Positions 22,966-54,219 of a stretch of 64,000 bases of DNA are shown here, in pieces; position 1 is the stretch's first letter; every line of letters begins with the position of its first letter. A model generated the notes under the pieces. The model made no database searches, was not told where the DNA came from, and saw only the letters and a list, made by a program, of their open reading frames with translations. Source of the stretch: Glandiceps talaboti (lineage: Eukaryota; Hemichordata; Enteropneusta; Spengelidae); contig NC_135563.1 in assembly GCF_964340395.1 (NCBI RefSeq), forward strand, positions 3,514,422 to 3,578,421. Direction: 5' to 3'. Position numbers and translations under genes: made by a program.

Positions 22966-25838
22966 GATTAAAGCAATGAAATAAATAAACTTTCATAAGC
23001 TGTTGTCCTCTTCCTGTCTTTTCTCACTTTGTATTGACTGAATAAAGACACCTTGTCAATTCTAATCCTTAAGTTTTAAGGGAGCCTTCAGAAATTACAA
23101 GGAGGGAGGGCCGGGTGAATTGGAGGGGGTTCACTTTTTTACAAATCAGTTCTCGGGGGAGGGCGCACAGTACAAGGATATTACAATAAATATGCTTTAG
23201 ATATCGGTACATACAAAACAACTATTTAAGCAATGCTCCCGAGGACTAGCGAGAAAGTATACTAGAGAGTCAACCTCTCTCTAATCTTTGTTACTTAACC
23301 GATCGGTTTTTTTGTTTGTTTTGTTTTTTTTTGGTTTGTTTGTTTGTTTGTTTTTTAACTCTTCCCCATTCCTAGATTATTGTTTTCTTTGTTGCTTTGT
23401 TTTCCTATCAAATTGTATTTTTTTGGAGTTATTTCTTTATGTATGAGGTAATAGAGTATGCACTTATTTTGTTCTACATGTATATCATTTTTGCAACTCT
23501 ACATATCTTCATTGTATAAAATGATTTATTTCATATAATTTGTTTGGGCCATGAAGGAAGATTAGTTCTGCTGAACTATATTTCATGGTCCCCACCAATT
23601 ATACTTAGTTAGATTTATGAAATGTAAATACTTATTATTATGGTGAAAATAAATTATTATATTATAACGTAGGTACAGGCCACTTGCAGACCAGGCCAGG
23701 TAAGATCAGGTATCGACTTAATATTTTTTTTATCACATTCAGATCCAAAAATGTGAATCTGTCATTAGATTTGGTGTAGATTTTAGATTAGTTTTTCTCA
23801 GGAATTCGTCACCAGTTATCATTGTTTTCAAAATCACCACACAATTAGTGTCTTCTGTACTAGGTATTACATTTTTCACATAGATTTCATACTCGTTCTT
23901 GTACAAACTGGGTACATTCAAGAGTAAACATATTTTACCAACTGCATGCACTTTAGAAATGTTACACATGAAAAACAAAAAGATTGCAGACACTCATATG
24001 CGAAAATAGTCGCATTTCGTGCAGATTTCAGTATTTATTGATAACAACACAATTTGCACAACTAAAATATACCATTGCAATATGTTTAAGACAAGAATGT
24101 ATGAAAACGACTTGTCTAAATGAAGTGACAATTACTCGTTCAAGAACAAAACATCTTGGGATATTAGTCTAAGTGTATCATCACCGAAGATAAATAACGA
24201 TCTAGGCGATGACTGGAAATCTGTCACTCTAACTCAGAGGGGTAAACCTTTGGCAGTTTGCAATAGCATCATGAAAATCAATGCCCTCCATACATCCCTT
24301 TTTTTTTAGATGTCATGTTTACGTAAATGTGTTATAGATGTAAAGGTCAAAGGTTATTCAGTGGGCAATATAACATGTATAGTAACAGTCGTTAGAATTT
24401 AACAGTTGAAGCATTATGTGTAATAATAAGAATACTTCAAAGTTAGCCTTATATTCAATCTGTTCCATATGAATATTCGAAATTATGCTTTAATATATAT
24501 TGCGACATATACAAAGTCTTGGTTACCCAGACTCTTGCCGTCGAGGGCTCTACCCTTGCTGGGTGCTGAGACTATCATATTATACATTGCATCAAAAGGT
24601 CAATGAAAGTTGGCGCAAAAATCAGGTTAGGTGTTGATCCAAATAGGAATGTGAATCCCCCAAAAATATTAAGTCTATACCTGATCATGACCTGTGTTTC
24701 GTACCGATCGCTACCTTTTTCCTTTGTTCACATCATTTTAAAGTGGGAATTTGGCCTACACATTGTTAGAAGGGTTGCTTTTTTGTATTATCAAACCCGC
24801 TATGCAGACATGGTCGATCAGTTTTCCAATATATTTTGTGCATAGGTCGTGTTGAACAATGGTGTGGTTACTAGGTATTTGTGTGGTAATTTGTGATAGG
24901 AAAGTTTGACACAAACATATACGTGTGTATATATATAGTAGATAGTTTAAGCATTGGTCAATATTCCGCGACCTTGCTAGCCGTCTGTCTGCTGCGTTGT
25001 GTTTGTGTCCCTAGGCCTGGTCCCACGATAGTGACAAATGACCCTATATACAAAATCATTCATCTGTAGCAATCAGAGGAGAAAACACATACGACCTTGG
25101 CTTATTTTACATACAAATGTACAATAGCCGTCAAAGGGAAAACAAAAAAGAGTGCGTTGCATTTTAACATATACAGAAATGACCATGTGAATCTATTACT
25201 GTAAGTGTACACTAACCTATTCTAAACAGCAATACCGTTCTCCCTTCATTATACAGAAATGACCGTGTGAATCTATTACTGTAAGTGTACACTAACCTAT
25301 TCTAAACAGCACTACCGTTCTCCCTTCATTATACAGAAATGACCGTGTGAATCTATTACTGTAAGTGTACACTAACCTATTCTAAACAGCAATACCGTTC
25401 TCCCTTCATTATACAGAAATGACCGTGTGAATCTATTACTGTAAGTGTACACTAACCTATTCTAAACAGCACTACCGTTCTCCCTTCATCATCATGCCCA
25501 GGACAAATAGTCACCATTTCCAAATCGTAAATATGTTTGTAAAATGACGGTTGGTATTTCACAAATATTTCTTTGTATTTCCGTCTCACATCGTAATAAT
25601 GCAACAGCATTTTGAACGCTCTGTCGACGTCAAACTTCTTGTTGCGTAAAAATCTGACGAGAAATGCATCATCAGGGGGCAGTTTGACTTCAGGTTTCTC
25701 CTTTCTAAATTTTTCCCTCAACTCGTCTATTTTCTGGTCCCTGGTTTCAGGATCTTCATTTAGTTCTTGTTTAGCTTTCTCAGCCGTCTTAGCACTCAGT
25801 GTGCTGACATAACGTCGACGTGTACCAGAGTCAGACAT
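18444..25838 (-). CDS. TTPAL-like CRAL-TRIO lipid-transfer protein, copy A
   Basis: Four coding exons: 25838-25457, 22087-21897, 20067-19957 and 18701-18444, giving 313 aa and ending in TAA. Phases are 1, 0 and 0; all junctions are GT-AG. Exon 1 encodes the CRAL-TRIO N-terminal helical domain ([20 protein letters not shown], a family hallmark, near residues 58-80). Exons 2-4 encode the SEC14-like lipid-binding fold, with [43 protein letters not shown] and LPTDFGG matching alpha-tocopherol transfer protein relatives. In this family such proteins carry a hydrophobic ligand (tocopherol, retinoid or phosphoinositide) between membranes; the ligand here cannot be told. The first ATG of the conserved frame ([10 protein letters not shown]) is chosen because copy B shares it; an in-frame upstream ATG at 25898 is possible. 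Copy B lies upstream on the same strand. Exon 2 begins RIDLNQY where copy B keeps the more usual RWDP. The exon 1 donor is duplicated in tandem. Confidence 0.9.
18870..18945. repeat. Direct repeat in intron 3 of TTPAL-like copy A
   Basis: Two copies, 45 bp apart, of a word containing cgttcgtcaacgcgagattt. It is of interest only as a recent local duplication. Confidence 0.8.
19768..19872. repeat. (CAGA)n(CA)n microsatellite in intron 3 of copy A
   Basis: About seven CAGA units are followed by a (CA)n run of about 34 repeats. It begins about 85 bp downstream, in transcript direction, of the exon 3 donor of the minus-strand gene. Confidence 0.95.
20160..20720. repeat. Degenerate (CATT/CATC)n array
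   Basis: About 560 bp of four-base units, catt, catc, cgtc and cacc, in changing blocks. It lies in intron 2 of TTPAL-like copy A. The minus-strand open frame through it, rich in Trp, Met, Asp and Gly, is an artefact of the repeat. Confidence 0.95.
21655..21795 (+). mobile_element. 3' tail of a non-LTR retrotransposon (LINE/SINE-like), copy 1
   Basis: The order ctagttctgcttgaact, gggcctcacc, gtctggtgaaaataaata, then a terminal run of tatgaaa-type repeats, recurs at 23552-23665 and, inverted, at 51308-51480. The shared 3' end and terminal short-repeat tail are typical of L2/CR1-type elements and the SINEs that use their machinery. No reverse-transcriptase frame remains. It lies in intron 2 of copy A, close to exon 2. 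Confidence 0.45.
22866..22966. repeat. (GATC)n(GATT)n microsatellite
   Basis: Four GATC units and then about 20 uninterrupted GATT units, in intron 1 of TTPAL-like copy A. Confidence 0.97.
23552..23665 (+). mobile_element. 3' tail of a non-LTR retrotransposon (LINE/SINE-like), copy 2
   Basis: It contains gttctgctgaactatatttc, atggtccccaccaatt and atggtgaaaataaattatta, in the same order as copy 1 at 21655. The upstream T-rich segment (23300-23550) may belong to the same element. No coding sequence is left. Confidence 0.45.
25186..25490 (-). repeat. 80 bp tandem repeat over the exon 1 donor of copy A
   Basis: Four units with 80 bp spacing. Each carries the last ~33 nt of exon 1 (agggagaacggta, ctgtttagaatag), the donor gttagtg and about 45 nt of intron. 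The real exon ends at 25457; repeated exon ends lie at 25377, 25297 and 25217. Units differ by one or two bases (aataccg/actaccg). Copy B has a single copy. Extending the exon past the real donor reads ATA GGT TAG, so any distal donor gives an immediate stop. Confidence 0.9.
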
Positions 25839-26186
25839 TGTTACCACTGCTAGTGAAGAAGGTGAATACTCTCTGACTCCTTTAGCAATTATTACCATGT
25901 GAATGGTGACACTGGCATGACAAACACCTGAATGAACTGCGCCCCTAAGTCACCAGATGTGACTGGGTATGTTTTTTTCATTGACATTGGTGTCGCAGAT
26001 TTCGTTCCCGCCAGGAATTTTGAAACGTAAATCTATCGAAACTTCAATAACAGAAATTATGTAGAATGGGGAGCTCAAAGTGACTGGCGAAAGTATATTC
26101 GAGTGACGCGAGGTTGTCTTTAGGTTTTAGATTATACTTCGATTCCATCCTTTACTTCATGGGACTCTAACATATGTGTGTTTTAA

Positions 26187-28230: not shown

Positions 28231-28494
28231 AGCGCCCCTTGCCATTCTACATTTTCCCCTTGGCCTCCCTCCCCTATGTATGTGCAATATTATTACTGCC
28301 CCCCCCCCCCCCTCCACCGGCCGTAAATAATGATTACTTCCTGCTCGACAGTGATCCGACAATTTGTTGTAGCTACATTAACATTGTTTTCTGAAAGAGA
28401 CTGGCTTTGCCAGATTGAGTGCAATATGATTAGTAATGATTCTAGATTCCGGATTCTGGATTCGGTTTCCATGTTACGGGAAAAGAGTTCTATA

Positions 28495-31400
28495 TTATGT
28501 TTCTAACTTCTTGAAGCTTCCCGCCAGTCCACCGACCGGATCAACACCTTGGGATTGAGCACCAAGAATTGCACCAGCCTTTGGGAAACCATATTGATTG
28601 TATTCAGCAAACTTGACGTCTTCCTTGACCAGTTCGTCAAAAAACTCTTTGGCGGAGTTGTTGTCCGTCAACTGTCCACCAAAATCTGTCGGCAGCATAG
28701 AGGACGGTACGTACTTGTGTAGAGTACCAAAGTCTTTACCATGTAGATGTATCTTGAATACAAAGAAATAATTTATACATACAATGTAAGCCTCTACTGT
28801 CTATGGTCTAACACTTGAATCCCAAATCCTTTAATATCATCATTACCAAGAATGCCTAGACTACGTCGCTCCGAAGTGTAATTGTTTTAGAACGACATTC
28901 ACCCTTTCAATTGTTTGCAAGATCCTCTTTTACAGCAAGGCTTATATTTATAAAGAATGTTGAATCTATCCAAAGACCACTAGTAAATACTCAGTGATCT
29001 TAGCTAAAACTATTTCCACATGGCGAGATATCGATATACGAAAGGCGTCTCATGTAAGAAGGAATAAAGGCTTTAATATCCAAAGGATGTATCAATTATT
29101 GAAATAAGTTGAAGGTCAAACTATGTACTAACTATAGGATCATCACTCCCATGGGAGAAAACAAAGAAAATCAAGTATAACAAGACATTGATATATATAG
29201 TTGACATCATACACAGCTAAACGGTATAAAGGTGGCTGTACACTATATTCACCAAAGTCATTTATTTGTTCAGCCGGGGAACTACTGATGGAATATCATG
29301 ATGGGGTTGACAGCATTGGACACACACGCCTACTAGACCTGGCCAGTGGTACCCCCCTCGTTCTGTACTTGCCCGACTTAATAAACATCATACGAGGTTC
29401 TGTACTTACCCGACTTAGCATCTTTTCATTCATCAATGGCTTAAAGATCGCCATTAAGGTGTCAAAGATTTCCGACTGACGAACGTAATGGAAGGCTTTC
29501 ATGCGGAGTGGCAATACATTCTGTATAGAAATACAAACACATGCCTTTATTTGTTATTTTGTTCTTCTCATACATCAAATTTCAGTTAAACTAAAGATAA
29601 TAATTACCTAATAAACCACACCGTTCATTTATTAATGTATATCCACATATCCAAAACTACCAAAGATTAAACGTTCAATAATGATTTGTCTATTAATAGT
29701 GTTTTAAGTGGCATCACCAACGGAACTCATCAAATTACAATATCACTATTACATAGTTCGAAACTTTCATATCTAAAAGACACCAAAGGTAACGTTGACA
29801 TTGATATAATTAATTAAGTCTACTATTCAGCTGACGTGTATCATTTTCTGTCAGTGAATTTATATCATTTAAAGTTATATATCTCAGCAACGCTGGGTCC
29901 TCATCTTCATCTTTAGTTCCGCTGTAACCAAGCAAAGATCCTCATTTGCCATGCTTCAGGATCCGTTGTCTAAGGCATTATTGAAATCAATTTTAATAAT
30001 ATGTATACAGAAGAAACGTAACGAAAAGAAGTGTATTGAATTGAAACTTTCGACAGAACTCATCAGTGTTTGTCAACTAGCTGACACGCTATTCATCAGT
30101 ACACACGACCTTACAGACGAGTCACGTGGGTCATCCTTCTATCGTTAAAAGACTGAAGTATTCACTTGAGAGGTACTATTTTCTTTATGTGTATGTTTGG
30201 AACCAAAAGTTTGCCAACACAGTTCACGAACACATAAACATCTGAATATTTCACGTTATTCAATACTGATATTGTTATTTGAGAATACTCCTACTCCTTC
30301 TTCCTTCTTGTATTGATTTGTATTGCAGATAAAAATAATTGCAAATTATTGTCCAGTAATTTTCTTCGTTCATCCAAGGAAAAAAGGCATGACCTAAGGG
30401 GTCTTGTTACTAGGAGTCTATCATGGATAAACAAGTAGTGACAAACCCCTTAGGTCACAAGAAAAATAATACACCCTCAAGCATTGCCTATGGAAAATCG
30501 GAAAAATAATGACGATTTTGAACGTTTTGATTCATATTTCGAGCACCGCAGAACCAGTGACGTAGACACCGGTTGTCATGACGTAGAACAACCAGGGTAT
30601 TAGTGTATTTTTTGTTCACAGACAATATCCTGGTGTGGGCATGATGTATGAAAGGTATAGTCAGCCTTGATAATGCAATAGCATCTCAATGTGCATGGTC
30701 ATAATGTAAAGATCAAAATACACAGGGTCTGTAACTATAAAAATGTCGGTGAAGTGATGATGGCTGGTATTTTACATAAAACAATGTGAGATTCTACGAA
30801 CCATTATTAAATCCATCTGTTTCTTTGCTTCCAGCGGTCCAAACTTTGTCATCATTTTCATCGTCAGGTGTTCGTAATCACCTACAAAGACAATACCATG
30901 GACTTGTACCTCTTCATCTTCTAGCAACTTATCATACAGCATCATGACAGCTGTTAAGATAGAGTCCAGACTGTATCGATCTGGATCCCACCTCTCTAAA
31001 CAAAAGACAAAGGTTTACACTATGTATTATCCCAAAGTTAGTCAATCCTTCTTGTCATAAATTACACAATGTAAGTTAGAAGATGAACATCAACGTCGTA
31101 ATCAACAAGCCTCTTTACGGCACCGTCCTGAGGCTAAACGTACCTGCAAAGAGGTTGCTTTGATCAGCAAATGTGTCCTTTGGTTTGCGAAAAAGATAGA
31201 AATCAACTCCATACGTCCTTAGGGTGTAGTATAAGAGCTGTTTCTGTGGGTGTTGGACCAGTTTACTATTCATTCTAAACTTTTCCCTCATTATCACGAA
31301 ATATAAATTCTTAACTTCTCCTGATCCTAAACTACAATTGCTATGTTTCGCAAGGCAGCCAAATCAATTTAGTATATGACATCATATCGGGTTGGGTTTG

Positions 31401-32402
31401 TTCTCTGACAGTACATTGTATTTGCTGGCGTGTACAGTAGCTCAATGACAGTGTGGTCACAACCAATGCTGTACTTTTTGTCTGACGCTCTGGTGCGTCT
31501 TGTATATTGGTGCCGTAAGAAGAGGCAGGGGTTTACACCGATGCAGTGTCGACATTTGGTCCATATAGGCCAACGTGTACATGTTAAACTTTGTTATCTG
31601 TATAATGTGTGTCACCTTGTGTTATCTACTGTATGAACTCGGGTTTGCGCATGTAAAATGACTCCATTCAACCAACTCTTAGAATACGAGTATGTGTCGG
31701 ATTATTTCAACAATCAGTCACGGTGAGAGGTGTTGGAGTGACTTTGAGAGTTTACTTTGTTATATTTCAACTATATAGATGTACGTGTATATCGTGGTTT
31801 TTTTTATCAATTATCAGTTGAACGACACGTGGCCATCGACGTCTGCTATGTTGTGTTTGTATGGTCCCACGATGAGAAATTAACCTATATACCAAGTATG
31901 CATAATGTAGCAGCCAAGGAAGAATGCTGTGTTACGTGTAATAGGTTGGCCTTTTAACACACACATATAAATGACCTTGACTCAACGTCAGTGAATCTAT
32001 TACTGTAAGTGTACACTAACCTATTCTAAACAGCAATACCGTTCTCCCTTCATCATCATGCCCAGGACAAATAGTCACCATTTCCAAATCGTAAATATGT
32101 TTGTAAAATGACGGTTGGTATTTCACAAATATTTCTTTGTATTTCCGTCTCACATCGTAATAATGCAACAGCATTTTGAACGCTCTGTCGACATCAAACT
32201 TCTTGTTGCGTAAAAATCTGACGAGAAATGCATCATCAGGGGGTAGTTTGACTTCAGGTTTCTCCTTTCTAAATTTTCCCCTCAACTCGTCTATTTTCTG
32301 GTCCCTGGTTTCAGGATCTTCATTTAGTTCTTGTTTAGCTTTCTCAGCCGTCTTAGCACTCAGTGTGCTGACATAACGCCGACGTGTACCAGAGTCAGAC
32401 AT
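28495..32402 (-). CDS. TTPAL-like CRAL-TRIO lipid-transfer protein, copy B
   Basis: Four coding exons: 32402-32021, 30995-30802, 29520-29410 and 28752-28495 (TAA), giving 314 aa. Phases are 1, 0 and 0 as in copy A; exon 2 is one codon longer. Domains are as in copy A: the N-terminal CRAL-TRIO helices ([20 protein letters not shown]) then the lipid-binding fold ([62 protein letters not shown]). Residues encoded by exon 1 differ from copy A at only two positions and the last 67 residues not at all. Exon 2 differs at roughly a third of positions, exon 3 at about 8 of 37. This suggests gene conversion at both ends, or purifying selection plus recent exchange. The gene lies upstream of copy A on the same strand as a tandem duplicate. 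The exon 2 donor is GTTCGT, weaker than usual. Confidence 0.9.
29345..29412. repeat. Short duplication of the exon 3 donor region, copy B
   Basis: On the plus strand, ttctgtacttgcccgactta at 29360 echoes ttctgtacttacccgactta at 29399, which carries the exon 3 donor of the minus-strand gene. The echo lies just inside intron 3 and has lost the GTAAGT donor (GCAAGT instead). It is a weak, single-copy version of the junction duplications seen elsewhere in this window. Confidence 0.55.
30388..30462. repeat. Inverted repeat (hairpin)
   Basis: tgacctaaggggtcttgtta and acaaaccccttaggtca are imperfect inverses about 30 bp apart, in intron 2 of TTPAL-like copy B. It may be a degenerate foldback element. 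Confidence 0.5.
31144..31273 (-). CDS. Candidate alternative first exon of TTPAL-like copy B
   Basis: Within intron 1 of copy B an ATG at 31273 opens a 43-codon frame (contains PQKQLLYYTLRTYGVDFYLF and RKPKDTFADQ) that ends in a strong donor, GCAG|GTACGT, at 31144. It ends in phase 1, the phase exon 2 needs, so it could replace exon 1. The product would lack the N-terminal CRAL-TRIO helices. I see no counterpart in copy A and no promoter motif, and phase agreement occurs by chance one time in three. Confidence 0.25.
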
Positions 32403-34718: not shown

Positions 34719-37700
34719 ATGGCGGACGCTCTCAATGAAGAAGAGCAAGACGTAGTTGAAATCGAAGAAGCTTTGTTATGTTCCCAGGGTTTTCCACGCG
34801 GAGCTAAAAGATTTAAAGGGTTTAGCGATAATTATCGTCCCAAACACAGAACACTTGTAACTAGCATGACTAGTGGGCAATGTCTTCCCAGACTTGCTAA
34901 TCGCAGAAAGCTACAGTATGCATCCTGGTGGATTGAACGACAGATGATGATGTTACGTTGGATTCCTGGTATATTCCCATTCATCTATGATACTTTTCCC
35001 AAGGATGCCTTGGAGAATCTCGATTTGCCTGGTGATACAGACAACCACGTATTTCTGAAGAGATCTTGTCTAATGCCTATTATGCAGTGGCTGTTAGAGG
35101 ATGGGGAGTTCGAACCACCCGAAATCAAGAAATTTGAAGTTAGCACGATGAGTGTAAGCGAACGTGTGAAGAACGATATTCTCAATGAACTTGCAGGTAC
35201 AATGTAATATTAAAGTAGAGAGATTGTAGTTGTGTTGTTTACGTCTCACCCGACGTATTTTGTTACGAATTACGACAAAATAAAGTAAATGTGAGTTTAA
35301 AACTATAAATTGTACTTAGACGTACATGTACATCAGCAAGACCCATGGTTGTTTTACTATTAGTGAGACCATGGGACGTATCATGGAGTATCTCAGACGC
35401 TGATACATCCATGGAAATGAAAAACCCATGATTACATTTACATTTTGTGTTTGCATTAAAAGTATAAAGCTTTGATATGTAGCCAAAAATATGTCATGTT
35501 GAGTAATGTACTTGAAGCTTAATGTGATATATTGTCAGATGTACATTGTAAAAACACCAAGTTATGCTCATCTACCAAATTATGAGAATGATTTGAATCA
35601 ATGTGTTTGATTTTTTTTTTTAATGTATAGTGGATAATGTACATTTTTTCCCCAAAATCATACAGATTGATTCGAGTGCCTGTGTGAAAAATAATCCTCA
35701 CAATATTTCGTTGTTTAAATTTAATGAAACCTAATGTAACTGAGGAGCATGCACGAGCATCTGGTACACGCAGTTGCTAAGATCAGTTTTCTGTCTTGGA
35801 AGTAAACATAATAATTCCCAGAGGAATTACATTAAGAAATAGAAATTAAAATAAAATAAAATAAAAATATAAAAAAGTTAAAAGTAATAATAGTGATAAT
35901 AATTTTTTTATTTTTGTTTAATTTAAAAAATAATAACAATAATCCATGATAAAATTGAAACGTTAATTTGATAAAGGAGTTATAGTAAGAGTAGGTTTTG
36001 CTGTCTCATGTCTGAACAAATGCTTATGTATTGTGCGACATAATATCATAGTTAGTCATTAAAGATATGAATTTGAAATAATTTGCTACATTTTCAAATG
36101 TGGGCACATAGAGTTTAATTTTTTCATTTGTCTGTGATGGTGATATACATGTAATGGGCAAGTTAATAAGAAATGTACCTCTCTTCAACATTCTTTGACT
36201 TACATTACAAATTTTAAACATTATCTTTCCTGTAGGGATTTTTTTAAGTGTCTTCCTATTGCTATCTTTAGATTGATCATTGTGTATGCCCAATTTGAAA
36301 GGAAATAATATATTACATTTGAAATGAGTGTTGAACAATCTATATGTTCTCAGTTTACTTTTATTATTTGAATTAAGACCCTTTGTGTTATCATTATGTA
36401 AGTCACTATGCCAATAGAAGCTGAAAATTTAGTATTTATATTGAGTGAACATTAATCACACATCTTTGAAAGATTCTCAATATTGTACTGAACCATTAAC
36501 TTTTTGTATTTATGTTAACTATGATAGACTCATTTAGTAGTGGCTTTGAGCAATCAATTGCATGATTATAATAGTTATATATCTATTGGATAACGGCCAA
36601 GTTCACTATAATTTCCCATTTTAGGTGATGCATGGGTATGCAAAACAATACTCAGTTTGCAAACTTGTGGGAAAAATTACTGCTGGTCGTAAGGACTATA
36701 AAAGCTGCTGGTTGCCATAAACAGTTGTGTGTAATACTTGATGCATACATGTAGTGTATATGTACCTACCTGAAGACAATTCTCACATTCCCATTGATGC
36801 TATCCTGCCAAAAGCTATAAACAAACCAGAACGTGAATAACAAAAAACATCTGAGGCCCAGTAGTCAACTATTAGCTATCAATTGACTATCTACTTATTT
36901 TACAGAGTGGTCTATTTGATGATGAAAGCTAGTCCCTGTTGAAATGATCAAAAATCTGGGGTTTTTTTCATAATTTCAAGCACCTTTCCTCACACATGCG
37001 AGCGTATGCCACCATGACACATTGGATGCACTGTTGCGCATACATTATATGGAGGGACATTTGAAATTCTGAACCATTTTGATTCCTAATTTTTGGACAT
37101 CTGAGCGGAGACTATTGTAAAAAAAGCTGTCACTGTTTATAAGTAAAGAGTTGATCAGTTGCTAACATTTGACCCACTGTGTGTGTGAGTTAATTCTATT
37201 GATAGTGGACAGGGCAGTTGAGTTTTGATTGTACGGCTTTCCACAGGATGGTGTAAATGGTACAATATCCGAATCTGTACTGACTTACGCCATCTGCAAA
37301 CATGACTAACATGTACTGAGAATGTATGTTATTTGAATAAAAAAACTAATATACTGTATTGAACTAGGGGAGAAATTCATAGTTTGCACCAAATCTAGTA
37401 ATATTTTTGATCCACTAAATGATCCAACTTTGTTCAAATAGATGGGGAAATACTGAATCTACTTAATTCTAATAGAAGTTCATTTCATATGATCTTTCCA
37501 AACTATATTTATCCTTGCACTAAAGCCATTCACTAAATTTTCTCTCTAGGGTCATATTTTTGTAAGATTGCCATGGCCATTCAGGATGCAACAAGATGTG
37601 TTCCATTGAAGCATTTAAACATAAATAGATTACATGACATAATCATGGTAAGTAAACCATTTGTTCATATTTAACCATAAATAGATTACATGACATAATC

Positions 37701-40700: not shown

Positions 40701-43700
40701 TAACCAGGCGTAATACCTCATCATATCACTAAATACAGGATACAACACACACATGATATGACAGTTATCACCTTGTATAAATAGTGAGAACTAACCAGGC
40801 GTAATACCTCATCATATCACTAAATACAGGATACAACACACATGATATGACAGTTATCACCTTGTATAAATAGTGAGAACTAACCAGGCGTAATACCTCA
40901 TCATATCACTAAATACAGGATACAACACACATGATATGACAGTTATCACCTTGTATAAATAGTGAGAACTAACCAGGCATAATACCTCATCATATCACTA
41001 AATACAGGATACAACACACATGATATGACAGTTATCACCTTGTATAAATAGTGAGAACTAACCAGGCATAATACCTCATCATATCACTAAATACAGGATA
41101 CAACACACATGATATGACAGTTATCACCTTGTATAAATAGTGAGAACTAACCAGGCATAATACCTCATCATATCACTAAATACAGGATACAATACACATG
41201 ATATGACAGTTATCACCTTGTATAAATAGTGAGAACTAACCAGGCATAATACCTCATCATATCACTAAATACAGGATGCAACACACATGATATGACAGTT
41301 ATCACCTTGTATAAATAGTGAGAACTAACCAGGCATAATACCTCATCATATCACTAAATACAGGATACAACACACATTATATGACAGTTATCACCTTGTA
41401 TAAATATAGTGAGAACTAACCAGGCATAATACCTCATCATATCACTAAATACAGGATACAACACACATGATATGACAGTTATCACCTTGTATAAATAGTG
41501 AGAACTAACCAGGCATAATACGCCATCATATCACTAAATACAGGATACAACACACATGATATGACAGTTATCACCTTGTATAAATAGTGAGAACTAACCA
41601 GGCGTAATACCCCATCATATCACTAAATACAGGATACAACACACATGATATGACAGTTATCACCTTGTATAAATAGTGAGAACTAACCAGGCATAATACC
41701 TCATCATATCACTAAATACAGGATACAACACACATGATATGACAGTTATCACCTTGTATAAATAGTGAGAACTAACCAGGCATAATACCCCATCATATCA
41801 CTAAATACAGGATACAACACACATGATATGACAGTTATCACCTTGTATAAATAGTGAGAACTAACCAGGCATAATACCCCATCATATCACTAAATACAGG
41901 ATACAATACACATGATATGACATTTATCACCTTGTATAAATAGTGAGAACTAACCAGGCGTAATACCTCATCATATCACTAAATACAGGATACAACACAC
42001 ATGATATGACAGTTATCACCTTGTATAAATAGTGAGAACTAACCAGGCATAATACCTCATCATATCACTAAATACAGGATACAATACACATGATATGACA
42101 GTTATCACCTTGTATAAATAGTGAGAACTAACCAGGCATAATACCTCATCATATCACTAAATACAGGATACAACACACATGATATGACAGTTATCACCTT
42201 GTATAAATAGTGAGAACTAACCAGGCATAATACCTCATCATATCACTAAATACATGATACAACACACATGATATGACAGTTATCACCTTGTATAAATAGT
42301 GAGAACTAACCAGGCATAATACCCCATCATATCACTAAATACAGGATACAACACACATGATATGACAGTTATCACCTTGTATAAATAGTGAGAACTAACC
42401 AGGCATAATACCTCATCATATCACTAAATACAGGATACAACACACACATGATATGACAGTTATCACCTTGTATAAATAGTGAGAACTAACCAGGCATAAT
42501 ACCCCATCATATCACTAAATACAGGATACAATACACATGATATGACAGTTATCACCTTGTATAAATAGTGAGAACTAACCAGGCATAATACCTCATCATA
42601 TCACTAAATACAGGATACAACACACACATGATATGACAGTTATCACCTTGTATAAATAGTGAGAACTAACCAGGCGTAATACCCCATCATATCACTAAAT
42701 ACAGGATACAACACACATGATATGACAGTTATCACCTTGTATAAATAGTGAGAACTAACCAGGCATAATACCTCATCATATCACTAAATACAGGATACAA
42801 CACACATGATATGACAGTTATCACCTTGTATAAATAGTGAGAACTAACCAGGCATAATACCTCATCATATCACTAAATACAGGATACAACACACATGATA
42901 TGACAGTTATCACCTTGTATAAATAGTGAGAACTAACCAGGCATAATACCTCATCATATCACTAAATACAGGATACAACACACATGATATGACAGTTATC
43001 ACCTTGTATAAATAGTGAGATCTAACCAGGCATAATACCCCATCATATCACTAAATACAGGATACAACACACATGATATGACAGTTATCACCTTGTATAA
43101 ATAGTGAGAACTAACCAGGCATAATACCTCATCATATCACTAAATACAGGATACAACACACATGATATGACAGTTATCACCTTGTATAAATAGTGAGAAC
43201 TAACCAGGCATAATACCCCATCATATCACTAAATACAGGATACAACACACATGATATGACAGTTATCACCTTGTATAAATAGTGAGAACTAACCAGGCAT
43301 AATACCCCATCATATCACTAAATACAGGATACAATACACATGATATGACAGTTATCACCTTGTATAAATAGTGAGAACTAACCAGGCGTAATACCTCATC
43401 ATATCACTAAATACAGGATACAACACACATGATATGACAGTTATCACCTTGTATAAATAGTGAGAACTAACCAGGCATAATACCTCATCATATCACTAAA
43501 TACATGATACAACACACATGATATGACAGTTATCACCTTGTATAAATAGTGAGAACTAACCAGGCATAATACCCCATCATATCACTAAATACAGGATACA
43601 ATACACATGATATGACAGTTATCACCTTGTATAAATAGTGAGAACTAACCAGGCATAATACCTCATCATATCACTAAATACAGGATACAACACACACATG

Positions 43701-46700
43701 ATATGACAGTTATCACCTTGTATAAATAGTGAGAACTAACCAGGCGTAATACCCCATCATATCACTAAATACAGGATACAACACACATGATATGACAGTT
43801 ATCACCTTGTATAAATAGTGAGAACTAACCAGGCATAATACCTCATCATATCACTAAATACAGGATACAACACACATGATATGACAGTTATCACCTTGTA
43901 TAAATAGTGAAAACTAACCAGGCGTAATACCTCATCATATCACTAAATACAGGATACAATACACATGATATGTCAGTTATCACCTTGTATAAATAGTGAG
44001 AACTAACCAGGCATAATACCTCATCATATCACTAAATACAGGATACAACACACATGATATGTCTCAGGGTAACACTTTTACATGTATTGAATGTCTTTAT
44101 GTCTTTCATGACTAGGCTATTCAAGATGTGCCACAGACGTACCTCAGAACAGCATTAAATGTATTCTCAGAGTGGCTAGTGGTGTGTAAGAATGACTTTG
44201 TAAAAGAAAACACATTAACTGCTGTTATGCAATCTTTAGTATCCTTTCTATTCCTGAGTGAAGATTTAATTCCACATGAACTTTACAAAATAAGGTGAGC
44301 AAACCATACCAAGGCTAGTCGGCTACCCAGACTTTCTGGTTAGATAGTCTTGGAGGATACAGCTTCAGCGATTGGAACAAGATGACTGCATGGAGACACT
44401 GATCCACAACATGCATATGACCACTCAAATGGTGGTACTCTTGCTAAGATTATTTTGGTTATTAATTTTGTAACAAAGACAGTTTTCAAAACTTTCATAA
44501 ATACCATGATTTCCATGAAATATATTCAGATTTGGTGAAAATGAATTTTCCATTTTCATCCAATCAGAAGTGTCGGAGAGTCTCCATCTTACGTTCAAAT
44601 CACTGAGGTTGTATTGTCCGAGACTCTGTCAGAGGAAGTCTGGGTAACTGAGACTATACCAGGGATAACATTGTATTGTCTGAGACTCTGTCAGAGGAAG
44701 TCTGGGTAACTGAGACTATAACAGGGATAATGTTGTATTGTCCGAGACTCTCTGTCAGAGGAAGTCTGGGTAACTGAGACTATACCAGGGATAACATTGT
44801 ATTGTCCGAGACTCTCTGTCAGAGGAAGTCTGGGTAACTGAGACTATACCAGGGATAACATTGTATTGTCCAAGACTCTGTCAGAGGAAGTCTGGGTAAC
44901 TGTGACTATACCAGGGATTAAAATGATAGTGCTTATGAAATTTATGTCAAAATTATCCTGAAACATATGAGTGCATGAATCAACTCTTTACTAAACCATG
45001 ATTAAACCATACAGATGTAAACTCTTTTCTTCTTATTGATGTTCATCATAACCAATCAAATGTCAATAGGTAAGGTTCAATGTGTACATATCTAATCATA
45101 TTTGATTTTACGGTTCAAAGATGTATCGCTTGAGACAACATCATAATACATTGTTACATTTAGGCTTGTTTTGTTTTTTGTGTATTTTAATTGAAATAAT
45201 AATATTTCCCATGTGAAATGATGGAAAGACATGTTGATCTCTTTAATTGTGAATGATTTTATAGAACAAAGACTAAACACCATTAATGACAGAGAAGGGT
45301 TTTATTGCTAAACCCAGGGTATGGTCAGGTGAAAACCATCCCGAGTAGCTCATGTAAACCACAGAATATTTGACATTGTATGGGGGACACATAATGCATT
45401 TTGGAACAGGCCACATGTTGATGTAACTTGTAACAGGCTACAGGTTGATGACCTTGTAACAGGCTACATGTTTATGATAAAAATATGGAGTTTATGTAAA
45501 AGCATTCATTCTAATAGATCAATGAAAGTTCGCAGTCAGTCCTATTGTACTGCTAGATCAAGCAAATTTCACCTGGCAGTGAGATCAAGTTTATGTTAAA
45601 ACCTACAAACAGGTCAAAGGTCATTGATCAGAGATACATCATGTTTCTAAATCTGTGGCACATTTAATAATTTAGTCAAGAATTATATAGTTTGGAGAAG
45701 TATACAAAGACCTTGTATTCTTTCTTTAGATCCAAAGGGAGTACAAGGAGACAATTTGAAATGTGCGGTCTAAGAAACAAAACGGAAACTGGTGTGGAAG
45801 TTAGAGTTGTTTGTGATGGACCCAACTACACGACAGACTGGGTAAAGAACTACAAAGTGTTAACAATGGCAGAGGTAGGTTGTTTCTGTTCAGTTTTAAA
45901 AACAGTTCGTACATAATGTATTTCATAGTTAACAATACTAAGGGATGTATTACATAGACATACTCTTGTGTGATATACATCCATAGTTAACAATACTAAG
46001 GGGTGTATTACATAGACATACTCTTGTGTGATATACATCCATAGTTAACAATACTAAGGGATGTATTACATAGACATACTCTTGTGTGATATACATCCAT
46101 AGTTAACAATACTAAGGGATGTATTGCATAGACATACTCTTGTGTGATATACATCCATAGTTAACAATACTAAGGGGTGTATTACATAGACATACTCTTG
46201 TGTGATATACATCCATAGTTAACAATACTAAGGGGTGTATTACATAGACATACTCTTGTGTGATATACATCCATAGTTAACAATACTAAGGGATGTATTA
46301 CATAGACATACTCTTGTGTGATATACATCCATAGTTAACAATACTAAGGGGTGTATTACATAGACATACTCTTGTGTGATATACATCCATAGTTAACAAT
46401 ACTAAGGGGTGTATTACATAGACATACTCTTGTGTGATATACATCCATAGTTAACAATACTAAGGGATGTATTACATAGACATACTCTTGTGTGATATAC
46501 ATCCATAGTTAACAATACTAAGGGGTGTATTACATAGACATACTCTTGTGTGATATACATCCATAGTTAACAATACTAAGGGGTGTATTACATAGACATA
46601 CTCTTGTGTGATATACATCCATAGTTAACAATACTAAGGGATGTATTACATAGACATACTCTTGTGTCATATACATCCATAGTTAACAATACTAAGGGGT

Positions 46701-47489
46701 GTATTACATAGACATACTCTTGTGTGATATACATCCATAGTTAACAATACTAAGGGGTGTATTACATAGACATACTCTTGTGTGATATACATCCATAGTT
46801 AACAATACTAAGGGGTGTATTACATAGACATACTCTTGTGTGATATACATCCATAGTTAACAATACTAAGGGGTGTATTACATAGACATACTCTTGTGTG
46901 ATATACATCCATAGTTAACAATACTAAGGGATGTATTACATAGACATACTCTTGTGTGATATACATCCATAGTTAACAATACTAAGGGATGTATTACATA
47001 GACATACTCTTGTGTGATATACATCCATAGTTAGATTCACTGGTAAATATAAGTAGAGATGAGATTATGATGTGCCAAGTATTTTACAGAATGACTGTGT
47101 AACACGTTATCCAATAAGGTTCTCTTTTTTACTTTCAGAATAAAGCCAATATGTATGAATTGGAGGCGTCATACCCACAAATGGTTTGTCAGTTTGTAGC
47201 AGCAGCAAGACATGCCCGTTTCAATACTGATACTCATCATATACTGTACAGTGTTTCTATGTGTGGCAAACGTTCCATTCTGTTAGCAAGAGCACATGTT
47301 TGGAAACAATTAACTGAAAGAACAGAAAGTTGTATTGGAGACCAGCCAGCATTGGAAAAGTCCCATTTCTTGTATCGTAAGGTTACTTCCCATGACTCTA
47401 ATCAATGTTATGATGTTTTTCCTATATTGACTATTTATATGGCAGTCAAGGCTGTCACATTACTACACATGAAAACCACTTTCTCCTGA
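34719..47489 (+). CDS. Unrecognised 416-aa protein, five exons
   Basis: Exons 34719-35196, 37550-37647, 44116-44294, 45730-45874 and 47139-47489 (TGA) join with phases 1, 0, 2 and 0, all GT-AG. The start context (aataATGGCGG) is good. The N-terminus is acidic (MADALNEEEQDVVEIEEA), followed by a basic, Trp-rich part (KLQYASWWIERQMMMLRW). The middle contains SEWLVVCKNDFVKENTL and SFLFLSEDLIPHELYKI, which look helical. The C-terminal half has MCGLRNKTETGVEVRVVCDG and YPQMVCQFVAAARHARFNTD. There is no signal peptide or convincing membrane segment. I do not recognise the family. The last ~30 residues, after SHFLYRK, read poorer and an alternative end is possible. Introns 2, 3 and 4 are inflated by tandem arrays; intron 2 (6.5 kb) holds three repeat blocks. 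The exon 2 donor itself is repeated. Confidence 0.75.
35200..37545. other. Intron 1 of the 416-aa gene, no other gene seen
   Basis: AT-rich intron with A-rich low-complexity stretches near 35840-35950. The open frame at 36024-36338 on the minus strand has no recognisable domain and no start or splice support. Confidence 0.6.
37592..38680 (+). repeat. 56 bp minisatellite carrying the exon 2 donor, 19 copies
   Basis: The unit holds the last ~35 nt of exon 2 (ataaatagattacatgacat, aatcatg), the donor gtaagt and about 15 further intron bases (aaaccatttgttcat). The real exon ends at 37647. Copies of the donor recur every 56 bp up to 38655, which is 18 extra copies. Variants are aatcatg/agtcatg, taaac/taacc and atagatt/attgatt. 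Reading on past the real donor gives a TAA nine codons later, so use of any distal donor truncates the protein. Confidence 0.93.
38774..39871. mobile_element. TTAA-flanked foldback element
   Basis: The termini agtgaccatatggattagga and taatccatatggtcact are inverted and flanked on both sides by TTAA (38770-38773, 39872-39875), the target duplication used by piggyBac-type elements. The arms are long: cttcctacttgaaaaatcaa at 39597 is repeated inverted near 39790. It has no coding capacity and is about 330 bp without the element inserted in its left arm (38812-39580). The piggyBac assignment rests on the TTAA sites alone. Confidence 0.65.
38812..39580 (-). mobile_element. HINE-like (Helentron-derived) element, copy 1
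   Basis: A 769 bp non-coding element with the inverted short repeats ttgtacaccggc/gccggtgtacaa. One of these is followed outwards by a near-perfect hairpin (38815-38881; arms acagatacaatccgaccaat and its inverse). Short subterminal inverted repeats plus a terminal hairpin on one side, no target duplication and T-rich insertion points fit Helentron-associated non-autonomous elements. It is nested inside the TTAA foldback element. The copy at 59464-60248 is in opposite orientation and highly similar throughout. Confidence 0.55.
39891..39995. repeat. Short tandem repeat, about 40 bp units
   Basis: Three copies built on aaagatagcatgtattctgg followed by aatatcctcatct. Intronic. Confidence 0.85.
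40300..44063. repeat. 89 bp satellite-like array, about 42 copies
   Basis: Head-to-tail units (gatatgacagttatcacctt, gtataaatagtgagaactaa, ccaggcataatacctcatca, tatcactaaatacaggatac, aacacacat) fill 3.76 kb of intron 2 of the 416-aa gene. Copies differ at only a few positions: cataat/cgtaat, cctc/cccc, aacac/aatac, and a 2-bp acac insertion. Each unit contains tataaatag (TATA-box-like) and ctaac (branch-point-like). The array ends about 50 bp before the exon 3 acceptor. Confidence 0.95.
44600..44925. repeat. Minisatellite, about 61 bp units, 5 copies
   Basis: Units of tgtattgtccgagactctgt, cagaggaagtctgggtaact and gagactataccagggataac, head to tail, in intron 3 of the 416-aa gene. Low divergence. 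Confidence 0.9.
45927..47035. repeat. 58 bp minisatellite, about 19 copies
   Basis: Units of catagttaacaatactaagg, ggtgtattacatagacatac and tcttgtgtgatatacatc. They vary mainly by gggatg/ggggtg and very little else. The array fills most of intron 4 of the 416-aa gene, starting about 50 bp after exon 4. It does not include the splice site. Confidence 0.95.
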
Positions 47490-47624
47490 AAAATCAAAAG
47501 ATGAAAAAGTAGAACCAAGACTTAATTTAGACCAATGTAGTTTAAGTATTTTCTCTGTCTACAGTTCTCAATCAAGTGAATGAAATAATCAGTTTCATTT
47601 GTTAGTCACACAGAAGTAATTTGA

Positions 47625-48455
47625 GGGGAGACTGCTGTACTTGAGGGGAGATAGTGTGTTGTACTTGAGGGGAGACAGTGTGCTGTACTTGTGGGGAGAC
47701 AGTGTGTTGTACTTGAGGGGAGACAGTGAGTTGTACTTGAGGGGAGACTGTGTTGTGCTTGAGGGAGAGACAGTGTGTTGTACTTGAGGGGAGACAGTGT
47801 GTTGTACTTGAGGGGAGACAGTGTGTTGTACTTGAGGGGAGACAGTGTCTTGTACTTGAGGGGAGACAGTGTGTTGTACTTGAGGGGAGACAGTGTGTTG
47901 TACTTGAGGGGAGACAGTGTTGTACTTGAGGAGAGATAGTGTGTTGTACTTGAGAGATAGTGTGTTGTACTTGAGGGGAGACAGTGTGCTGTACTTGAGG
48001 GGAGATAGTGTGTTGTACTTGAGGGGAGACAGTGTGTTGTACTTGAGGGGAGACAGTGTTGTACTTGAGGGGAGACAGTGTCTTGTACTTGAGGGGAGAT
48101 AGTGTCTTGTACTTGAGGGGAGACAGTGTTGTACTTGAGGGGAGACTGTGTTGTACTTGAGGGGAGACAGTGTGTTGTACTTGAGGAGAGATAGTGTCTT
48201 GTACTTGAGGGGAGACTGTGTTGTACTTGAGGGGAGATAGTGTGTTGTACTTGAGAGGAGACTGTGTTGTACTTGAGGAGAGATAGTGTCTTGTACTTGA
48301 GAGGAGACTGTGTTGTACTTGAGGGGAGACAGTGTTGTACTTGAGAGGAGACTGTGTTGTACTTGAGGGGAGATAGTGTGTTGTACTTGAGGGGAGACTG
48401 TGTTGTACTTGAGGGGAGATAGTGTGTTGTACTTGAGAGGAGACTGTGTTGGACA
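47625..48455. repeat. G-rich minisatellite, 22-26 bp units, over 30 copies
   Basis: Units of gtgttgtacttgaggggaga followed by cagt or tagt, with short-unit variants. It starts about 140 bp after the stop of the 416-aa gene, so it may be transcribed in its 3' UTR. Because the unit lacks stops on the minus strand and unit lengths vary, all three minus frames stay open for about 300 codons (SPLKYNT, SPQVQHT and SSTTHYL readings). These are not genes. Confidence 0.95.
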
Positions 48456-48459
48456 GGGA

Positions 48460-49110
48460 CTTGGGGGTTTTCTTTGAATCTTGGGCACAGGTAATAAAAA
48501 ATGAGAAATACATACATGCTTTAATTTGTTGCTCCTATTACCTCTTTTTTACTGAATGGTTTGTGTGTGTGTGTGTGTGTGTGTGTAAACACCAATATTA
48601 TTTTGAGTGACACTGTCTAGTTTGTTTGTTTTTCAAATGAAAATGATCGCACCACAGCTGTGTGCATGCATGATTTGAGTAAAAAAAAGTATTTTTGGTA
48701 AAACAACTTACACTCAAGAAGTACTGGGTAGATTGTTGTTGGGGATGTCATTTGGGATGTGTAATTTATACTACTCAGTGTCCTTTATGGAACCACAGGC
48801 AACGTCTGTGATAAGAAATCTCCAGCCCTTGCATCAATCTCTATGCATAACTATGTCTTTTTCAAAAGAAACGAAAAACTTGAAGTAGATTGACACGCTA
48901 ACATAAAGCCCAGGATGGCGGTCACGAATGTCAAACAGACAGGCAGACCTTGACACAGGGACACATATTATTGCTTCGATTGTTGTTTTTCTAAAAAGGA
49001 AAGGGAAAATATCACACAAATCCTGACTGAAAATGTATCAATATACACTATATACTAGTAGAAGTATTCTTTCCAAAAGGTAGGGGAAATAAATTCAAGT
49101 CAAAACGTTT
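48460..49110. other. Non-coding spacer
   Basis: A short (GT)n tract lies at 48560-48588. No exon is supported. Confidence 0.5.
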
Positions 49111-49818: not shown

Positions 49819-52800
49819 ATGGGTAAGACACCGAAAAAAGACAAGGAGGCTCGGGAAGAAGAGGTTGAAAGCACCGAAAGGACGTATGAAAGTCTTGTTA
49901 CTTTGGTCAATCCAATTTCAAGTCCTCTTGCGGGAAGAAAACTTACAAAACGACTGTATAAAACTGTCAAGAAAGGTCAGTGACACAATATTCAATAATC
50001 CCCAATATGGCTGCCACCATTCGTGACCACGCGGTCCACACTCGTATATTTGTTTGTATCTACGAATAGATGATTGTAACGCGAAAGCCAAAACATTAAC
50101 CATTGTTAATTGTTGTTGGAACGTAAATGAAATTGTAGCTACATTGTTGCATGTAACGATATTTCTAAAACTATACGTTCTGAATCATTACAGTGCAGTG
50201 TTAGTGTTAGTGTTAGTGTTAGTGAAAAACATACTGTGTATGGTTTGTTGAATCATGGCAATACATGTATAACCCATGGTTGAATTAATTACGTGCAAAC
50301 TACTTCGAGTCCCGCTTGCAGACAGAGGTTTAAGTCGGGACTCGATTCTGACAGTGCCCCTTTTCATGGTTAAAATCGAAACCCGTACTCCGTCTGCAAG
50401 CTTGACTAGTTGTTAATCCTTAATTGTGCATGTATGTGTGGTTGTAATATATGTGATTATTGAGCGTGAGGGTCGAGTGACAAATCGGGGGGGGGGGGGG
50501 GGTCTCTCATCTACTGGTTTGGTCAGGGCTAATGTTAACATCATTGGGTGCCTCTCTCCCAGTCGTACAGTGCCCAGGCCATGTGTTAGCTTGTTCAGAG
50601 AGAATACTTTACATTCGGGGTTTTTTTTTGTAACATTCGAATTTGAAAGAATATTAAGCTTAAAGTTCTTCCACTGGATTTTAAAGAGATAAAACTTAAA
50701 AGTCTCGGTGAGATCAACTTTTAAATTTCTAAATTCCAGAGACTGTTCAATATATACATCGTTATTCTTGCAATATATTACTTATTCAGTACATAACATA
50801 ATAGCAAAAAACAAAAAATGCACAAATGTGAGTGTCATGTACACTTTAGTTATTTATATGTCACCTGTTGCCAATCTCGCATTCTGATTGGTTGAGAGCC
50901 CTGCAGATATTTTTCACCAACAGCTGTAATTTTGCTTGTTGTGTCACATGATCACTGCATGTCCCCTTGTAAACAAACCATACAGAAAACTACATGTACA
51001 AATCCAGGTATTACCAGCATTTCCAATGCCAAATTTATTGTCAAATGTACAAAATACATAGGGAAATTGTCAAAAATTCCATACAGAATGGCGAATGTCC
51101 CGGAGACAGTGAACGCACAGTCATCTCATGATCGTAAACATGAATTCCTAAATTTATGAATGATGTCGAAATTACCACCACAGAGGGCAGAATTTTTGCT
51201 TAACTAGAACAACAAAGCATATTATGAAGTATGCAAAACAAGGACATTTTCCAGCTGAAGGTTACTACAGTATTACATTTCTGTAGTTTGAATCTGACTG
51301 AGTGATATGCAAATAATGAATGAATGAATGAATGCAATTTATTTCACCAGATAACAAAAATAAGCTACACTTTCAAAGAAACATATGATACAAATATACA
51401 AAATGAATACAAAAGAAATAGACAATTGTTATCTGATGTAGAGCATCAGCGGAACTAGTCTTGTCCATGGCCTATACAATTTTCTACATTTCAAATCAAT
51501 AATGGCACGCAACAAACTTTCAAATATAGTAAACTTTACATCATACTACAGAGCAAACGCTCACTCTGATTGGATGGTAAAGTTAGGGTTGTCATAAACA
51601 ACTGCATTGCAGTCATCAGAGAGGTGTGTGATATTAGTGCTGCAGAATAATGCATAAGTGATTTTATTTTGAAATGAAGCAGTACTTTTAGACTTTCCTT
51701 GAAGAATGAAATCATAGCCGCAGGTGACGTGTAAGTATGTTATTTGCCAAATACTGTTCCACAACTTGCTATGCAAGGTCATTAATGATCTCTTGCTGCA
51801 AGACATGGAACAGTATTTGGCAAATAACATATACATATTATCAAATGAAAATTTTTATCTAGTTTACATCTATTATTTTTACAGCAAGTAAACAAAAGAT
51901 GGTCAGAAGAGGTGTGAAAGAAGTACAAAAATTCATACGCAAAGGAGAAAAAGGGTAAGTTGCATGTTCCATGTTATTTCATTTCTCTTGTGTGCCAGAA
52001 TAGTTTGACATATTTTACAATATATTTGGTCATACATTTTATAGCCACAGAAATGTCCTCTTAGCAATGTGAATATCATGGACAGAAATGTCCTCATACT
52101 AGTCTTAGCAGTTGATCCTCTTTCTCCCTAGGGTGTACACAACTAAGTACAAGTTGGTCCTATTTCTCCCTAGGGTGTATTTGTTTGTACACAACTAAGT
52201 ACAAGTTGGTCCTCTTTCTCCCTAGGGGGTATTTGTTTGTACACAACTAAGTACAATTTGGTCCTCTTTTTCCCCAGGGTGTATTTGTTTGTACACAACT
52301 AAGTACAAGTTGGTCCTCTTTCTCCCTAGGGTGTATTTGTTTGTACACAACTAAGTACAAGTTGGTCCTCTTTCTCCCTAGGGGGTATTTGTTTGAACAC
52401 AACTAAATACAAGTTGGTCCTATTTCTCCCTAGGGTGTATTTGTTTCTACACAACTAAATACAAGTTGGTCCTATTTCTCCCTAGGGGGTATTTGTTGTA
52501 CACAACTAAATACAAGTTGGTCCTCTTTCTCTGGAGGGGGTATTTGTTTGTACACAACTATGTACAAGTTGGTCTTCTTTCTCCCTAGGGTGTATTTATT
52601 TTTACACAATTAAATACAAGTTGGTCCTCTTTCTCCCAAGGGGTATTTATTTTTACACAACTAAATACAAGTTGGTCCTCTTTCTCTGGAGGGGGTATTT
52701 GTTTGTACACAACTATGTACAAGTTGGTCTTCTTTTTCCCTAGGGTGTATTTATTTTTACACAATTAAATACAAGTTGGTCCTCTTTCTCCCTAGGAGTA

Positions 52801-54219
52801 TTTATTTTTACACAACTAAATACAAGTTGGTCCTCTTTCTCCCAAGGGGTATTTGTTTGTTCAGAGTCTTTTCCTAGTGTTTCACTGCTATTAAATTGGA
52901 AACAGTTCGTTGCCAATTCAAATAGCCCAGTTCTTTTTTGAAATAATTTATAGGCAAGTTAACCAAGAACTTGTTTACATACATTGTATGAATGTATTAT
53001 TGACTGCTATATGTACTGCTATGCAATATCACTTGTTGTTTCCCTTTACCTGGAGTGACTTTCCAGGACTTTTCTTTTAATTTTGAATTTATGTTGTCAT
53101 GATACAATTTTTGTTAATCTTCTCTACTACTACTAGGGGTATACCCCCCCCCCCCCATACATGTATTTGCTTGTACACAATAACAACAAGTTGAACAAAA
53201 ACAGGATTATTTGATTTATACTTTCCATAGATTTGTTGTGTTAGCTGGTGATGTGACACCCATTGATGTCTACTGCCATATTCCACTCATATTTGATTTA
53301 TACTTTCCATAGATTTGTTGTGTTAGCTGGTGATGTGACACCCATTGATGTCTACTGCCATATTCCACTCATATTTGATTTATACTTTCCATAGATTTGT
53401 TGTGTTAGCTGGTGATGTGACACCCATTGATGTCTACTGCCATATTCCACTCATATTTGATTTATACTTTCCATAGATTTGTTGTGTTAGCTGGTGATGT
53501 GACACCCATTGATGTCTACTGCCATATTCCACTCATATTTGATTTATACTTTCCATAGATTTGTTGTGTTAGCTGGTGATGTGACACCCATTGATGTCTA
53601 CTGCCATATTCCACTCATGTGTGAAGAAGCTGAAATTCCATATGGATATGTACCGTCAAAACAGGTCAGTATCATGGCTTACAAATTATATACATGTACA
53701 TGTACATGTACATTACAAAGATGTGTGCCAAACAGTGAATTACCTGATCAACTTCATGTAAGTGACTCCAGTAGTGTCCAATCCAGCTATTGACTGCAAA
53801 TTTGTATGCCGTGACAAACATGTACGCATATGCAGCGACATTATCGGTCATTTGGTTTTTTGTTATGATGCCCATATCTAAGCAAAGCCAGTATTTTAGA
53901 CTTCCTTTTGCCAAATTCCTTTTAGATACATCTCAAAAGATATCCTCAGCAGACAAGTAATGTGTATTGTATTTTTGTCTTGTCTTGTATTGTATTGTGT
54001 TTACTATACCATGCTTTCCACAGCATGTTGTTAAGTAATAAAGGTTATTGTTTGTTTAAACTAATTCTAACACACTGTAACTCTATTTTGTAGGATCTTG
54101 GAGCCGCCACAGGAGCCAAACGACCCACAGCTTGTGTACTTGTAAAACAGTCTGATGAGTACAAAGACACGTATTTAGAATGTAACGGTGAACTGAAAGC
54201 ACTTCCACTGCCAATATGA
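49819..54219 (+). CDS. NHP2: H/ACA ribonucleoprotein subunit 2 (NHP2)
   Basis: Four exons, 49819-49975, 51885-51954, 53559-53664 and 54094-54219 (TGA), join in phases 1, 2 and 0 to a 152-aa protein; human NHP2 has 153. The central L7Ae/Gadd45-type RNA-binding fold is clear: RRGVKEVQKFIRKGEKG, then VVLAGDVTPIDVYCHIPLMC, then YGYVPSKQDLGAATGAKRPT, and the C-terminal LPLPI seen in orthologues. NHP2 acts in the nucleolus and Cajal bodies with dyskerin, NOP10 and GAR1, binding H/ACA snoRNAs that guide pseudouridylation of rRNA and snRNA, and in vertebrates also telomerase RNA. The N-terminal tail is lysine- and glutamate-rich as in orthologues. Intron 2 carries a 52-58 bp array with acceptor-like sequences and four tandem copies of the start of exon 3. 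The weak GTCAGT donor follows exons 1 and 3. Confidence 0.96.
50100..51300. other. Intron 1 of NHP2, first part
   Basis: It contains a (gtgtta)n run at 50194-50222, a G-run near 50488 and loosely inverted segments around 50300-50400 (gtcccgcttgcagacag versus ccgtctgcaagc). No gene is seen. Confidence 0.5.
51308..51480 (-). mobile_element. 3' tail of a non-LTR retrotransposon (LINE/SINE-like), copy 3
   Basis: Read on the minus strand it gives ggccatggacaagactagtt, ccgctgatgc, then tatctggtgaaataaattgc and a terminal (attc)n run. This is the same order as the copies at 21655 and 23552. It lies in NHP2 intron 1, opposite in direction to the gene. Confidence 0.5.
52120..52858. repeat. Minisatellite with acceptor-like units in NHP2 intron 2
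   Basis: About 13-14 copies of a 52-60 bp unit: acaagttggtcctctttctc, cctagggtgtatttgtttgt, acacaactaagt. Most units contain a pyrimidine tract ending in CCTAG, a good match to a 3' splice site. Copies vary (ccctag, cccaag, ctggag), so some have lost the AG. The array lies between exon 2 and the true exon 3 acceptor. Confidence 0.9.
53149..53618 (+). repeat. 82 bp tandem repeat over the exon 3 acceptor of NHP2, 5 copies
   Basis: The unit joins ~22 nt of intron end (atttgatttatactttccat, ag) with the first 60 nt of exon 3 (atttgttgtgttagctggtg and so on). Acceptors lie at 53231, 53313, 53395 and 53477 as complete copies; the functional one opens at 53559. The full copies appear identical, which argues for very recent expansion. 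If an upstream acceptor is used and the copy is read through in frame, the TAG of the next acceptor is an in-frame stop. The first copy is preceded by a C-run (53147-53157). Confidence 0.95.

Follow-up and report, generated by a model that had tools for sequence, protein, structure and literature searches.

The closest described counterparts of the arrays considered here come from amphioxus, for which the original Adh paper reportedly dates from 2002. Further afield, a minisatellite in IFI6 (6-16), attributed to Turri et al. 1995, is said to supply multiple splice donor sites, and the Rogers model reportedly traces the gain of introns to tandem genomic duplication of AGGT, with a case in potato RdRp.

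The amphioxus class has a name, 'mirages' (PMC3087553, PMC3902484), and the remark in the initial annotation of our locus that it knew of no named class of junction minisatellites therefore does not hold. In the sections of PMC3087553 that treat them, mirages are described in Adh3 and in the globins BflGb6 and BflGb9, with units of 150-160, 157 and 10-72 bp; copy number differs between haplotypes, and RT-PCR data for Adh3 and globin suggest that regular splicing is undisturbed by them. The corresponding sections of PMC3902484 add a mirage in PGBD5 and cite TnC, with units of 60 and 108 bp. For earthworm metallothionein, the sections of PMC12783039 on these repeats describe intron minisatellites and exon duplications, and junction arrays were not seen in those sections.

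Here we consider the window, that is the whole stretch of 64,000 nucleotides analysed, in which three genes carry a tandem array on one of their splice junctions. Among the papers searched here, no report of mirages in hemichordates was found.

Splice-junction arrays in the window

Arrays on junctions of a TTPAL-like gene, of a gene encoding 416 aa and of NHP2 had been described in the initial annotation, each unit being said to contain an exon edge, a splice site and an intron edge, and the use of any further site being said to add an in-frame stop. Using Tandem Repeats Finder and the location of the splice site in the copies, we could confirm all of this: the sites are intact in 4/4, 19/19 and 5/5 copies respectively, and decoy use gives RIG* in TTPAL-like copy A, IIMVSKPFVHI* in the 416-aa gene and IPLIFDLYFP* in NHP2. 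All three junctions are backed by homologues or paralogues.

TTPAL-like copy A encodes a CRAL-TRIO protein. Its exon 1 has its coding part on the minus strand at 25457..25838 in a coherent joined reading frame, and the donor of this exon is covered by an array of 80 bp x 4.0 copies with 98% match (25170-25489, minus strand; Tandem Repeats Finder). The donor ATAG|GTTAGT has its first intron base at 25456 in the authentic, exon-proximal copy and at 25376, 25296 and 25216 in the decoys. The joined protein contains a CRAL_TRIO domain (PF00650, E 1.5e-26), and exon 1 aligns to its last codons with retinaldehyde-binding protein 1 (3hx3_A, E 3.1e-12). A paralogue on contig C14 (L003), 76% identical in DNA to the TTPAL-like gene, places its donor, by eye, at the corresponding codon position and has no array. 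In copy B, exon 1 and the first 30 intron bases (31991..32402, minus strand; donor first intron base 32020) contain one unit only, compared with four units in copy A, and the two copies are about 98% identical there. The units of copy A alternate at one G/T difference, reading G, T, G, T outward from the exon, which fits a doubling of two units to four. Copies A (18437-25838) and B (28490-32402) share 98% identity around exons 1 and 4 and 79-87% over exons 2 and 3, a sequence pattern suggesting gene conversion of the ends; as the identity at exon 1 may reflect such conversion, the array of copy A is not simply datable from it.

The 416-aa gene (34719-47492) has five exons that give one open joined frame of 416 aa, and its protein has no match in Pfam or PDB. 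Exon 2 (37550..37647, plus strand), which rests on a coherent joined frame and on a paralogue on contig C20, ends in an array of 56 bp x 19.1 copies with 96% match (37613-38680, plus strand; Tandem Repeats Finder) that covers its donor. The motif CATG|GTAAGT is preserved in every one of the 19 copies, the first of which is the authentic one with its last exon base at 37647, and past the last copy a sequence resembling a decayed partial unit can be recognised by eye. The C20 paralogue shares exon 2 and its donor, ATAATCATG|GTAAGTAAACCATTT, with the 416-aa gene, the donor standing there as a single copy free of any array. The first 252 residues of the protein give 27 matches in the genome, of which three are to the gene itself and 24 to other places, many of them on C20, and the gene is a member of a lineage family. 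About 24 bp over the exon 2 donor (37640-37663, with roughly the first 15 bases of the intron among them) are identical in the C20 paralogue (L047), and the exon 2 proteins of the two genes are only about half identical. The introns of the 416-aa gene (window positions 35200-49000) also hold arrays with units of 56, 35, 89 (42 copies), 64, 26, 58 and 24/46 bp, all within 13 kb.

In NHP2 it is an acceptor that is multiplied. An array of 82 bp x 5.0 identical copies (100% match; 53208-53618, plus strand; Tandem Repeats Finder) covers the acceptor of exon 3, the authentic form of which lies at 53559..53664 on the plus strand according to an alignment with 7bgb_I across the junction. The acceptor CCATAG|ATTTG has its first exon base at 53231, 53313, 53395 and 53477 in the decoys and at 53559 in the fifth and authentic copy; splicing there gives GEKG-FVVLAGD, which aligns over the junction to H/ACA ribonucleoprotein complex subunit 2 (7bgb_I, which we take to be the human protein) with E 4.1e-35. 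A dispersed-repeat or mobile origin of the unit was considered and rejected, since a DNA search of the genome matched only the unit's own locus, and its origin is accordingly local. A further array of 52 bp x 14 copies lies off the junctions in intron 2 of NHP2 (52134..52860, plus strand; Tandem Repeats Finder), its units carrying by eye an acceptor-like TCTTTCTCCCTAG|GG, and a diverged stretch resembling this 52-bp unit, again by eye, is found at about 53130-53195, just upstream of the exon 3 array.

Junction arrays and chance expectation

Arrays with units of 40-120 bp occupy 16.1% of the bases of the window against 8.9% of a background sample of 19 stretches of 10 kb (190 kb) taken from 19 contigs, an uneven sample in which three of the 19 stretches carry about 89% of these array bases and nine have no such array. 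For units of 20-500 bp the corresponding values are 18.5% and 14.2%.

The four gene models of the window comprise 26 junctions, of which three are covered by an array, and rotation gives an expectation of 4.2-6.4 (P(>=3) 0.72-0.98), so that the suggestion in the initial annotation of three events beyond chance was not borne out. When the nine arrays of the 18.4-54.3 kb span are placed at random, 3.25 are expected on a junction compared with the three observed (P 0.72); with the two longest arrays left out, the expectation is 1.85 (P 0.27). We also searched for junction copies with a 28-mer test, which looks within 400 bp for a second occurrence, with 22 or more of 28 positions matching, of the 28-mer that has the junction at its centre. 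In the window, such a copy was found at 2/13 donors and 1/13 acceptors versus 734/2762 points, intron points being a set whose members overlap one another, which makes binomial P values indicative only. This genome is very rich in minisatellites, and three junction arrays are about what chance would give.

Junctions in myosin genes

As a sample of junctions elsewhere in the genome, we used the myosin genes, represented by PF00063 (myosin head) alone, for which there were at least 78 exon matches, with 65 of the 175 candidates scored; PF12774, with 89 exon matches, was left out. The sample consists of 18 stretches (49.5 kb) with 52 exon matches, in which 101 junctions were placed by a simple splice score that will have put some of the sites wrongly. 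The 28-mer test kept the 81 of these 101 junctions with a splice score above 2, the 20 weak-scoring ones being dropped.

Tandem Repeats Finder, the arrays of which differ slightly between the two strands, covers 2 of the 101 myosin junctions with an array. A near copy of the junction 28-mer was found at 2/45 donors and 1/36 acceptors, compared with 723/4530 intron points (16%) of the same stretches. Splice junctions thus look depleted, not favoured, for duplication copies, a depletion that may be overstated for genes at large because myosin genes are highly conserved. Such a lower rate at junctions than at intron points is expected if duplications land anywhere and those that damage exons are lost. 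The rate of junction copies is higher in the window (3/26) than in the myosin genes (3/81), a difference that is not significant (Fisher P 0.15).

The myosin cases come from two loci. In one (L040), the end of a myosin exon (52 bp) and its donor are repeated 141 bp downstream (141 bp x 2). In the other (L042, G000:C12:385500-389400), the donor and the acceptor of a single myosin intron both carry mirages. The donor recurs at 50 bp (50 bp x 2); it was placed on the second copy and counts once either way. The acceptor has a copy 142 bp upstream that agrees at 27/28 bases around the site, and the exon part of this copy is mutated and carries a deletion, the true exon being open. The decoy of L042 has decayed and the exon-proximal copy has kept its coding sequence, as predicted if junction copies are tolerated on the intron side.

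Mitochondrial contig

The mitochondrial contig (G000:C40, 51,222 bp) contains three COX1 matches 15,435 bp apart and is probably an unresolved concatemer. Read with the invertebrate code, nine mitochondrial genes use AAA twice and AAG 40 times, and in the best PDB match three of the four ATA codons of the COX1 domain stand opposite Ile or Val and one opposite Met. The passages of PMC2697986 that deal with these codons describe the reading of ATA as Ile as a synapomorphy uniting echinoderms with hemichordates, and report that Balanoglossus mitochondria lack AAA. Gene order is largely chordate-like, most genes having been named by eye, with COB between ATP6 and COX3; this ATP6-COB-COX3 arrangement differs from that of Balanoglossus and Saccoglossus, in which, according to the same paper's account of them, nd5 adjoins cob. 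Taken together, the codon usage suggests an ambulacrarian and probably a hemichordate, and the gene order speaks against an echinoderm. Amphioxus, a candidate host since mirages occur in its genes, is very probably not the source, to judge by COX1, the codon counts and the gene order.

Discussion

In our view the three arrays are very probably mirages, that is, minisatellite-like tandem duplications whose breakpoints happened to enclose an exon-intron boundary and which are tolerated if the additional copies come to lie intronward of the exon. In a genome so rich in minisatellites, the occasional duplication falls on a splice junction. An initial event in which a segment of 50-150 bp was duplicated, perhaps by unequal crossing-over or replication slippage, would leave the splice site present twice, with the additional copy towards the intron, and continued unequal exchange would then change the number of copies. 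Duplications of this kind would survive because one complete exon edge stays beside the body of the exon. The exon-proximal site would presumably be picked by exon definition and the other sites ignored, and the rare use of a decoy would lead to a premature stop and, presumably, to nonsense-mediated decay. Two of the three genes have a paralogue in the single-unit state, namely TTPAL-like copy B and the C20 paralogue of the 416-aa gene.

Two explanations had been offered in the initial annotation, and they fared differently. Tolerance survives; a duplication process with a preference for splice-site sequence, such as one acting through R-loops where donors are transcribed, would make junctions into hot spots, yet in the window they are hit less often than rotation predicts and their copies are rarer than those of intron points. 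Some observations do lean towards donors, which are involved in two of the three window arrays and two of the three myosin cases. Also, in the plus-strand run of Tandem Repeats Finder, six of the 101 myosin junctions have an array within 30 bp and all six are donors, and at two myosin loci (L043 and L046) arrays begin 10-30 bp past the donor and have units with a donor-like AGAAGGTA or AAGGTAAG; these two arrays may be decayed mirages. However, array starts within 30 bp of a donor in myosin introns number four against 2.4 expected (P 0.13, sense-strand permutation), acceptors are hit too, in NHP2 and L042, and among 33 array units of 40-120 bp a single one, that of the 416-aa gene, contains a donor-like motif that is better than in shuffled sequence (p <= 0.05). 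No array in myosin introns ends within 30 bp of an acceptor, where 1.3 would be expected (P 0.18). A weak preference of array starts for donors may exist, but no observation calls for it; we regard a hot spot as quite improbable, and a special mechanism of splice-site duplication is no longer needed.

The decoys could instead be functional and serve, as alternative or poison sites under regulation, to tune expression in the manner of the IFI6 minisatellite. The intact sites in all located copies, the stop to which each decoy leads and the precedent reportedly set by IFI6 (Turri et al. 1995) would agree with this, but the arrays are young (their units are 96-100% identical), so that intact decoy sites need no selection; moreover, the arrays are missing from the paralogues and the acceptor decoy of L042 has decayed in its exon part. 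Functional decoys therefore seem to us highly improbable. Artefacts of assembly or polishing are harder still to credit as the source of the arrays, and we hold them to be extremely improbable: the five NHP2 units are identical and the three COX1 matches on the mitochondrial contig are identical and head to tail, which points to at least one concatemer in the assembly, but the TTPAL-like and 416-aa units carry patterned substitutions and the separate myosin cases have diverged copies.

If the arrays are mirages, they extend a little-cited amphioxus phenomenon to a host that seems to belong to another deuterostome phylum, and the near copies at 3/81 myosin junctions and 3/26 window junctions, below the rate at intron points, provide a first rough rate. 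With 4 to 19 identical tandem splice sites in a row, the arrays offer a clean natural experiment in spliceosomal choice among equal sites. More speculatively, mirages might be a general and steadily turning-over feature of minisatellite-rich deuterostome genomes, in which a few per cent of junctions would carry ignored tandem decoys; we advance this only tentatively and incline to doubt it. If true, such decoys would form a natural mutation series for the choice of the exon-proximal site and a standing supply from which new exons and shifted introns could arise.

Comparison with known systems

Like the arrays described here, the IFI6 minisatellite reportedly has donors in its units; the extra donors of IFI6 are reportedly used, whereas the decoys here would give stops. 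As in intron gain through AGGT, a tandem duplication has copied splice-competent sequence inside a gene, but here the intron pre-exists and the multiplication concerns a single one of its edges. No new intron missing from homologues was seen: the same donor stands, without an array, in the paralogue of the TTPAL-like gene on C14 and in that of the 416-aa gene on C20.

The likeness to the amphioxus mirages, as these appear in the sections of the two papers devoted to them, extends to several features. In both cases a minisatellite-like tandem duplication spans an exon-intron boundary, and both 5' and 3' boundaries are affected, here at two donors and one acceptor in the window and, in the myosin genes, at the donors of L040 and L042 and the acceptor of L042. 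Many amphioxus units keep AG/GT, as do 4/4, 19/19 and 5/5 units here, and unit lengths are of the same order, with 80, 56 and 82 bp in the window and 141, 50 and 142 bp in the myosin cases. The arrays differ in that their host is probably a hemichordate and not a cephalochordate, and that they are seen in one haplotype, at the level of DNA sequence. The new point is this host, probably from another deuterostome phylum, and mirages are probably not confined to cephalochordates.
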